In this document: positions 17,639 through 25,760 of the stretch, piece by piece | How the letters are laid out: the number at the start of each line of letters is the position of its first letter | Position numbering within the stretch: the first letter of the stretch is position 1 | NCBI GenBank assembly: GCA_030068145.1 | Contig: JAPJBO010000389.1 | Span: forward strand, 124,001 to 188,000 | Origin: Diplonema papillatum | Lineage: Eukaryota; Euglenozoa; Diplonemea; Diplonemida; Diplonemidae | Length of the DNA stretch: 64,000 bases | Reading direction: 5' to 3' | Notes under the pieces: generated by a model | Database searches by the model: none | Seen by the model: only the letters and a program-made list of their open reading frames with translations | What the model was told of the DNA's origin: nothing | Made by a program: the position numbers and the translations under genes

Positions 17639-17778
17639 TAAACACGCACACACAAACACAAACACGCACACACACACACACACACACACACACACACACA
17701 CACACACACACACACACACACACACACACACACACACACACACACACACACACACACACACACACACACACACACACA
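17639..17778. repeat. (CA)n microsatellite at the left edge of the retrotransposon
   Basis: Imperfect CA repeats from 17639 and pure CA from about 17667 to 17778. The retrotransposon 5' end (GGGACTGGGAG) starts at the next base. Confidence 0.95.
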
Positions 17779-17827
17779 GGGACTGGGAGAAAAAGTTTGA
17801 ACCGATCACAAAATCATCATCAAATAC

Positions 17828-19705
17828 ATGTCTGCACCTCCAAGCGGTGGTCCTGGGCAACGTGTCCAGTCAAATGAGACACGGCCGACGCAGACCAGCA
17901 CCGAGGCACCCTGGCAATGGGTGCCGGCTAGCGGCAACAAGAAAACAGCCCCAGCTAAACTGCGGGCTGAAGACTGGTCGACTCCGATCCTCGACGTCAA
18001 CGAGCTGATCGAGGGAGAAGAGGAAGGGGTAGCGATAGCCGACGTCAGACGGGCCATCGCCGCAATAGCTGGCGAAGGGAAGAAGAAGAAGAAGGGGTCG
18101 CGCGCGATAGTTGTGTTGGGAGCAGCCCCAGGCCTGGACAGGAAGACAGCGGAAGAAACAACCGTGGTCGTCACGAGAGGACGACAAATCGAGGCCGTCG
18201 CGGCTTGGGTCGTTCAGTTGGGCGACGAAAACGTCCGGCAGAGGCGGGTCTTAAGGTCCGTGCCGATGCCGGTTTGCGAAGAGAGGAAGGTCTCGGTTCG
18301 AATTCCGAAGAGCCAGACCACCAACGCGCAGTGGGAGGAGGCTGCAAGAGACCTGAGGGGATATCTCAGGAAGCATGCCGCGGAGACGGGAGCTGGCAGC
18401 ATCTCCATCACCGGAGTGGAGACACGGGGCCGCTTCGATGACCCGACGCGTTTTTTCGGTGCCCTTGTGCGCACGACGGAAGAAGGGGCGGCAGCTCTCG
18501 CGAAGGCCTCCGGGCGTAACGGCGTCTTTGCAGCCCCGAAAGGAGACGAAGGGCCAGTCGTGTGGTTGTCCACCGGCACGAAGTTGGAAGAGGCGCAGGC
18601 ATTCGCACGTGACAGGCCGGGCCTCGTGATCAGGCTTGCGGTCAACAAGAAAGGTCTCGGGCTTCGGGTAAAGACAGAGGACGAGGACCGCGCCCGAAAG
18701 GAAGCAGCGGGGGCGGCGGTCCCCAAACAGCAGGGTAGGTTGTATGACGTGTCCGGCTTCGACAGGGGGACAACGGCCGGACAGGCAGAATTGTTTCTGC
18801 GGACCGCGGGGTGGGCCGACGCCACGATCATCAGGGCCATACCGAAGCGAGGGGGGATTCTTGCGGTCGTGAGGGGTCAGGACCCACCTACATGGGAGTT
18901 TGGAGTCGAAGGCGCAAAGGCCCGAATCCTCGTATCCACGACAAGGTACAGAACGGAGACGGACCAGCGTTGGGTACAGGCCATCGCGCAGGAGAGAAGG
19001 AAAGACCCTGGCGAGCGCGGAACAGCCAGGGAGGACGAGTCGTACACCTGGAAGGAGTTCGTCCAGCATTATGGAATGAAGCAGGCGGAGAAGGAATGGA
19101 GCAACGCCGGGCGTGAAAAGGAGGCCGCGTCAGGAGTCGTTCCAATTGAACAGCAGCCGGCAGCCGCTGGAGTCCAGAACGGGAAAGGCGCCAAGGGCGA
19201 CACGGGTCTAAAGGACGCATCGTCGCCGATAAGTGAAACGTACGCGCAAGCCGCTGCCTCGGGGAAAAAAGGGAACGCAGAAGGTAAGCGGGGTAAGCAG
19301 AAGAAGCCGCAAGAAGGGGAGGAAGTAGAACATCAACTGGAACAACTCCGGGGAGAGAACCAGCGGCTCAATGCAAAGCTCGAGAGAGCAGCCAAGGCAG
19401 CAGAGGAAGAACGAGGGGCGACGCGAGAGGTGGTCGAGCAGAACAAGCTACTGTCGAGAAAAGTGGAGGAGCTCACCACCCTGTTGGGGAGTCTGCAGGA
19501 GCAGGTCCAGGCGTCGAACAAGCGGTCCGAGGAAAGAGAGAAGCGGGAAGCATCTCCTCCCCATGCAGCGGCTGCGTCGGTTGGAGGGAAAAGGAGGAGG
19601 GCGGTTACGCGCTCGACCTCGACATCGAAGTCTCAGGAGCCACTCTCCCAGGCAAAGAGGCCAGCAGGAAAGAAAATTACCGACTACATGAAACCGCGGG
19701 TATGA
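17828..19705 (+). CDS. Retrotransposon ORF1 protein (nucleic-acid chaperone/RNP type)
   Basis: 625 residues from ATG 17828, 49 nt after the CA tract. The N-terminal half is charged. The middle has RRM-like strand/helix patterns, for example around LYDVSGFDRGTTAGQAELFL and ILAVVRGQDPPTWEFGV, but assignment to an RRM is tentative. Residues ~497-577 form a clear heptad coiled coil (EVEHQLEQLRGENQRLNAKL and onward), as in other ORF1 proteins that trimerise and coat element RNA. A basic stretch follows, then the C-terminal KKITDYMKPRV, which resembles a PCNA-interacting (PIP) motif lacking the leading Gln. The stop is TGA followed by C, and the same frame continues into ORF2. Confidence 0.85.
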   Translation: MSAPPSGGPGQRVQSNETRPTQTSTEAPWQWVPASGNKKTAPAKLRAEDWSTPILDVNELIEGEEEGVAIADVRRAIAAIAGEGKKKKKGSRAIVVLGAAPGLDRKTAEETTVVVTRGRQIEAVAAWVVQLGDENVRQRRVLRSVPMPVCEERKVSVRIPKSQTTNAQWEEAARDLRGYLRKHAAETGAGSISITGVETRGRFDDPTRFFGALVRTTEEGAAALAKASGRNGVFAAPKGDEGPVVWLSTGTKLEEAQAFARDRPGLVIRLAVNKKGLGLRVKTEDEDRARKEAAGAAVPKQQGRLYDVSGFDRGTTAGQAELFLRTAGWADATIIRAIPKRGGILAVVRGQDPPTWEFGVEGAKARILVSTTRYRTETDQRWVQAIAQERRKDPGERGTAREDESYTWKEFVQHYGMKQAEKEWSNAGREKEAASGVVPIEQQPAAAGVQNGKGAKGDTGLKDASSPISETYAQAAASGKKGNAEGKRGKQKKPQEGEEVEHQLEQLRGENQRLNAKLERAAKAAEEERGATREVVEQNKLLSRKVEELTTLLGSLQEQVQASNKRSEEREKREASPPHAAAASVGGKRRRAVTRSTSTSKSQEPLSQAKRPAGKKITDYMKPRV

Positions 19706-19759
19706 CTCACCTCCGGGAGACCAGCTGTGGCCACAGACTTCGCTAGCAAGCAACAACGC

Positions 19760-25435: not shown

Positions 25436-25490
25436 GGATGCTGACGACTTGGGCTATACTCCGCTTCAGGGGTTACCCGCGATTGAATTC

Positions 25491-25757
25491 CAACACACAC
25501 ACACACACACACACACACACACACACACACACACACACACACACACACACACACACACACACACACACACACACACACACACACACACACACACACACAC
25601 ACACACACACACACACACACACACACACACACACACACACACACACACACACACACACACACACACACACACACACACACACACACACACACACACACAC
25701 ACACACACACACACACACACACACACACACACACACACACACACACACACACAAACA
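25491..25757. repeat. (AC)n microsatellite at the right edge of the retrotransposon
   Basis: About 130 uninterrupted AC units directly after the element's 3' end (GATTGAATTCCA). The strand and dinucleotide match the left tract at 17639-17778. The tract ends ACAAACACAG, which can serve as the 3' splice site of the host gene's intron. The Thr/His frame across it is an artefact. Confidence 0.95.
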
Positions 25758-25760
25758 CAG

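Follow-up and report, generated by a model that had tools for sequence, protein, structure and literature searches.

LINEs of the R1 clade carry an APE endonuclease, and a 2003 study by Kojima and Fujiwara is reportedly the source for the insertion of one of them, Mino, in AC repeats. SART1 and TRAS are LINEs that reside in one orientation in a simple tandem repeat, that of the telomeres, and Dualen encodes a cysteine protease. According to PMC3124438, Mino, of the R1 clade, is inserted in AC repeats; the NeSL-related fish element Togen is given as (TG)n-specific in PMC4640811, where Dualen/RandI is also described as combining APE and RLE in one element, together with an RNase H. The LINEs of Ectocarpus were assigned to CRE, RTE, RTE-X and unknown groups in a report whose main text does not contain the term OTU (PMC12477816). 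Our survey of the literature on OTU-bearing LINEs, AC/CA targets and LINE readthrough, which covered for the most part papers accessible without subscription, met this combination in no title or abstract opening.

Here we describe a 7.7-kb LINE lying between two CA tracts in a 64-kb stretch of DNA, the whole of which was analysed and is called the window below. With a probability of about 0.9, it is a recently active, microsatellite-specific non-LTR retrotransposon, belonging as one family to a larger lineage, here divided into groups A and B, whose members insert into (CA)n. Observed in the genome are the target, the orientation and the phase, as well as truncated copies joined to the tract, copies nested in tandem, and the same habit in several divergent families.

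Boundaries and coding content of the element

The original prediction placed a LINE-type retrotransposon at 17639-25760. The element is present, but these limits contain both flanking tracts and are better drawn at 17779-25492 (Table 1). The prediction that pure CA ends at 17778 and that the element starts at the next base agrees with our reading of the 5' junction, where 17779 is the first base of GGGACTGGG. Also borne out were the AC on the 3' side, the lack of poly-A, and the identity of repeat type and strand on both sides; the direct junction with (AC)n, predicted at 25491, stands as well, but GAATTCCA ends at 25492 and (AC)n is placed from 25493. A poly-A tail was rejected, as the 3' ends enter (AC)n directly in the window copy and in other loci, and no long terminal repeat was seen at the element boundaries read.

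Table 1. Features of the LINE and its flanking tracts, in window coordinates.
Feature	Position	Strand	Remarks
(CA)n tract 5' of the element	17642..17778	+	target DNA; pure from 17667 on
LINE element, family A1, GGGACTGGG to GAATTCCA	17779..25492	+	junction reading and probe matches
ORF1, 625 aa	17828..19705	+	
TGA	19703..19705	+	sole stop between same-frame ORF1 and ORF2; possible readthrough site
ORF2, 1902 aa	19727..25435	+	counted from GTG; first post-stop ATG at 19760
OTU cysteine protease domain, ORF2 residues 46-133	19862..20125	+	Pfam 35.4 bits, cut-off 23.3
APE-type endonuclease domain, residues 245-450	20459..21076	+	Exo_endo_phos 46.4 bits, cut-off 24.5
Reverse transcriptase (RT) domain, residues 832-1081	22220..22969	+	RVT_1 71.5 bits
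Zinc-knuckle-like CPYC...H...C behind RT, residues 1343-1361	23753..23809	+	Cys/His invariant in 3/3 families
RNase H domain, residues 1554-1686	24386..24784	+	RVT_3 29.1 bits, above cut-off
C-terminal Cys/His-rich motif, residues 1844-1873	25256..25345	+	conserved in 3/3 families
3' stem-loop GGGCTATACTCCGC..CAGGGGTTACCC	25451..25478	+	retained with variants in group A relatives
(AC)n tract 3' of the element	25493..25759	+	target remainder and/or tail

The presence of APE and RT in one ORF, together with truncated copies sharing a common 3' end, identifies an APE-type non-LTR retrotransposon. Exo_endo_phos and RVT_1 exceeded their cut-offs in the window copy, in two further families (L102 and L104) and in the L105 fragment. 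ORF2 of L102 and L104 is 65% and 43% identical, respectively, to that of the window copy and has the same domain order, the OTU match of L104 being sub-threshold (20.0 bits, cut-off 23.3) and its zf-RVT match also below cut-off. In the window ORF2 the Pfam RNase_H score was just under cut-off (25.3 against 25.8 bits), and no Pfam family scored above cut-off in ORF1. The end of ORF2 (window 25256-25435), with its Cys/His-rich motif and terminal SAVT, is kept in all three families.

A profile made from the three families was searched against PDB sequences. The RT part matched L1 structures at 1.6e-16 versus 6.5e-6 for R2; the OTU part matched OTUD5 and OTU1, and viral OTU domains more weakly; the RNase H part matched prokaryotic enzymes, some of which we take to be of archaeal origin. 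Archaeal-type RNase H occurs in oomycete retrotransposons, according to PMC5348765. The endonuclease domain alone gave no match to a LINE endonuclease in PDB; its residues N, E, D-x-N, R-I-D and H do not vary across the three families. In all three, the usual S/T-D-H motif of such endonucleases is replaced by T-H, with T at the D position (window 20459-21076). No invariant (K/R)PD, the motif of RLE, was noticed in the alignment by eye, and the structure model of ORF2 residues 1080-1902 from the three-row alignment was poor (pLDDT 38, pTM 0.28). A scan of viral_contigs found no relatives.

In group A relatives a stem-loop GGGCTA.ACTCCGC..CAGGGGTTACCC precedes the tract; the folding energy of the 3' end was no better than that of shuffled sequences in any of four stretches. 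The last bases before AC vary in a few copies, as slipping on the repeat would produce.

Insertion into (CA)n tracts across the genome

A 601-bp probe from the element had at least 41 matches in the genome assembly (271 Mb, 2,910 contigs), and 17 of these reached the maximum score, 1,085 bits; the family is very recent. Copy counts are lower bounds: 30 of 40 listed matches were fetched for the 5' end and 30 of 41 for the 3' end, the 3' probe having scored 40 of 862 first-look candidates. All 30 fetched 5' loci contain the start GGGACTGGGAGAAA, and in 29 it is directly preceded by 19-338 nt of pure (CA)n whose last base is A (36 nt at L068). At the 3' end, 29 of the 30 fetched loci pass into 11-261 nt of pure (AC)n. 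The two exceptions, L062 at the 5' end and L033 at the 3' end, adjoin imperfect CA-rich DNA and are the two ends of one copy (C1275). A script returned 24 distinct upstream flanks, one of them (L041) merely a contig end, which leaves 23 real ones. Sixteen of the 27 near-identical 3' loci were matched to a 5' end, with probe ends 7,712-7,714 bp apart in 14 copies and 6,818 and 8,471 bp apart in the other two. In this tabulation (CA)n flanks in one orientation, as predicted, and in one dinucleotide phase are the rule, and unrelated DNA or poly-A is not.

Tract lengths are alike on both sides in some CA-poor loci (C269, 26/18 nt; C837, 23/17; C145, 19/15; the second C251 copy, 21/19), but since the sides differ in C690 (37/17 nt) and C1362 (25/118 nt), this is not a strict rule. 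A duplication of about 18-20 bp made by the enzyme at a minimal CA target would yield such alike short tracts; within a perfect repeat, a target-site duplication is invisible.

In the 271-Mb genome, (CA)10 with A, G or T as the next base was counted 2,884 times, versus 2,911 for the control, in which the pattern is read backwards. By comparison, (CA)10GGG occurs 366 times versus 11 in the control, and the other phase, a tract ending in C and then GGG, 44 times versus 9; GGG follows approximately one-eighth of such (CA)10 tract ends. As GGG is in excess in one direction and one tract phase, both orientation and phase are fixed. In a non-random sample of GGG sites (20 fetched of the first 22 listed), 15 had the 5' end of a recognisable family of this type. 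The other five were not full 5' ends of recognised families: L086 resembles, by eye, a truncated ORF2, and no family was recognised at L070, L074, L084 and L087.

The habit is common to at least five families, with ORF2 identity down to 43%. L101 (with a broken ORF2), L102, L104 and L105 each extend from (CA)n-GGG to (AC)n, and the 3' end of L103 lies beyond the fetched stretch. The possibility that L103 is a chimera was rejected, its ORF2 being open up to that limit. Tandem copies were also found: a pair on C251 separated by 21 nt of CA, and copies on C2 and C23 with GGG sites about 7.6 kb apart.

One contig, C269, carries its LINE behind a 5' flank that is a dispersed AC-tailed retroposon. 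In twelve fetched paralogs of this flank the LINE is absent and the insertion point is occupied by a CA tail, the shortest of about 4 nt (L095) and the longest of about 28 nt (L089); these are paralogous, not allelic, empty sites. No allelic empty site was found among 40 scored of 878 candidates when the flanks of five loci were combined into a single query; the C269 repeat took up the list of this search, and weaker second copies of the other four loci could escape it. The flanks of those four, on C28, C726, C204 and C389, had self-matches only, among the matches listed. The retroposon ends in ATCTTAAAAAGGACC(AC)n and is 5'-truncated at different points (L050, L089-L100, L112-L117). In contrast to the LINE, it has no CA tract at any of six 5' ends, three of them placed roughly. 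Two of the six copies have exact flanking duplications, one of 20 bp and one of 18 bp, each beginning with CACAC. The C696 copy has one of 9 bp, versus up to 7 bp for mismatched pairs, and the other three had no duplication beyond the level of such pairs.

Several other features of the CA tracts and of the window were observed. A pure CA tract of 354 nt (window 13975-14328), 3.3 kb upstream and with no LINE beside it, is apparently an empty landing site. A palindromic sequence resembling CTAGCAAGCTTGCTTGAGCGCC, perhaps another mobile element, recurs beside CA tracts (flanks of L011, L014, L037 and L102). The window also contains a 100-bp repeat in two adjoining arrays of opposite orientation (30599-32708, 97-99% alike) and 52 copies of a 26-bp repeat (60293-61645, 99% alike).

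Whether the upstream CA belongs to the element or to the target is decided by 5'-truncated copies with the same 3' end, which were sought among 3' loci with a 5' break inside the fetched 1.5 kb. There are seven (L019, L025, L026, L027, L034, L035 and L037), L017, L021 and L022 having been left out as internal rearrangements. They have seven different break points, and (CA)n is joined at each, in L027 with additional A residues at the junction. Truncated copies thus join (CA)n at their own break points, and therefore the upstream CA is target DNA and not part of the element, as originally predicted. It is accordingly very improbable that CA belongs to the element, in front as a CA-rich leader and behind as an (AC)n tail templated by the RNA, without any target specificity: all seven truncated copies are leaderless yet adjoin (CA)n, which led us to reject an element-borne 5' leader, and the length of the upstream tract varies from 19 to 338 nt. 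This refutes the 5' side of that explanation; on the 3' side an RNA tail is possible. Some L1 and RTEX LINE families of green algae are tabulated with 3' repeats of (CA)n (PMC3747384), so that a CA target does not follow from an AC tail by itself. An RNA-encoded AC tail would look the same as a remainder of the target, and so we infer, rather than observe, that the tract also serves as tail.

Two further explanations accept the junctions and dispute their origin. The element could mainly track the tails of other retrotransposons, CA being merely what those tails contain. Thirteen of the 30 upstream flanks were identified by eye as LINE 3' ends from group A or B, the C269 copy sits in the tail of the AC-tailed retroposon, and tandem copies occur on C251 and C2; however, other copies, including that of the window, occupy CA tracts next to which no LINE is recognised, no relative was found elsewhere within the 64-kb window, and many tracts measure 100-300 nt on both sides, which makes this account unlikely. 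Alternatively, the junctions could come from recombination or duplication between CA tracts, or from misjoining by the assembler, instead of insertion. Perfect repeats are difficult to assemble, flanks recur between a few copies (L054-L056, L064/L066), and several contigs terminate within copies or tracts. Against this stand the 23 distinct upstream flanks, the seven truncation points, all at a tract, the fixed orientation and phase, and the same rule in several unrelated families, so that we give this explanation hardly any credence; the flanks and the different truncation points make assembly error, in particular, a very unlikely source of the junctions.

We therefore retain insertion into (CA)n, which would proceed by target-primed reverse transcription in one orientation and one dinucleotide phase. 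The nick in the (TG)n strand would come from the APE domain; the 3' end released there would prime on the end of the RNA, with which it could pair through CA/AC. A top-strand cut after an A would then give the observed start, A followed by GGG. Insertion leaves CA on both sides, and therefore the tails of the element and of the AC-tailed retroposon could become the next landing pads. On this basis we tentatively propose, as one possibility, that a whole LINE lineage (OTU, APE, RT, RNase H) uses the (CA)n microsatellite as its niche, that microsatellite and element grow together, and that ORF1 and ORF2 may be read through into a polyprotein processed by the OTU domain just behind the stop. Microsatellite growth and retrotransposon spread would thus be linked in a testable way. 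The near-identical recent copies, with their orientation, phase and truncations, and the several families offer a clean natural experiment on how a LINE chooses a simple repeat.

The stop between ORF1 and ORF2

Ten families or subfamilies were compared (A1-A5 and B1-B5; the window copy, L032 and L102-L109), and in every one ORF2 continues in the frame of ORF1 behind one stop codon, which is TGA throughout group A and TAG throughout group B. Beyond it the frame is open into ORF2 as far as read, the reads of A3 and B5 ending before the OTU motif. The stop of A1/A2 is conserved at 29 of the 30 loci; at the remaining one (L056) the contig terminates before it. In the post-stop spacer, dN was 0.078 and dS 0.475 for B1 versus B4 (73 codons), which speaks for readthrough; B3 versus B5 (67 codons; dN 0.284, dS 0.385) lends it little support. 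Values for A1 versus A2 were dN 0.202 and dS 2.283 over 46 codons, which include their ATG, and for B2 versus B3 dN was 0.624 with dS saturated.

One frame with a single stop in ten of ten suggests stop-codon readthrough, which is the likely route to ORF2 in group B. At least in that group, ORF2 would arise by translation past the one in-frame stop, giving a product that may be processed by the OTU domain. Alternatively, ORF2 could be translated by reinitiation at an ATG past the ORF1 stop, which we regard as conceivable but doubtful for the lineage as a whole. Reinitiation is established in SART1 and proposed in LINE-1, according to PMC5972666; an ATG lies between the stop and the OTU motif in A1, A2, A4 and A5, and at codon 30 of the 31 readable codons in A3. 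For group A, with its ATG behind the stop, reinitiation is possible. However, B1-B4 have no ATG ahead of the OTU motif and B5 has none within the 67 codons read, the frame is identical in all ten, and the A4 spacer is open for 91 codons ahead of its first ATG. The arrangement suggests that a LINE may obtain its ORF2 protein by stop-codon readthrough.

Comparison with described elements

The likeness to SART1 and TRAS lies in the way of living, residence in a simple repeat in one orientation, the repeat here being (CA)n. In translation the two differ: ORF2 of SART1 begins at an overlapping stop-start (PMC5972666), and the present LINE has an open in-frame spacer. Togen shares the dinucleotide repeat that serves as target (PMC4640811), the comparison covering the repeat itself. 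The same source places Togen among the RLE-bearing elements, whereas the present LINE has an APE domain and an RT nearer to L1 than to R2; RLE as the only endonuclease, without APE, would be expected of NeSL/Togen and other RLE LINEs, and here APE is present. With Dualen/RandI it shares APE and RNase H in one LINE; there, according to PMC4640811, APE is accompanied by RLE, whereas here no RLE was recognised next to APE, in a region whose structure model is poor.

Mino is similar in target site, as insertion in AC repeats is reported for it (PMC3124438) and found for the present LINE. The present ORF2 starts with an OTU domain and shares one frame with ORF1 across a single stop, Mino being compared here by its target alone. 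Insertion of a LINE into AC repeats is thus already known; what sets the present LINEs apart is their OTU-bearing domain composition, how many families insert in this way, and the in-frame stop that stands alone between the two ORFs.
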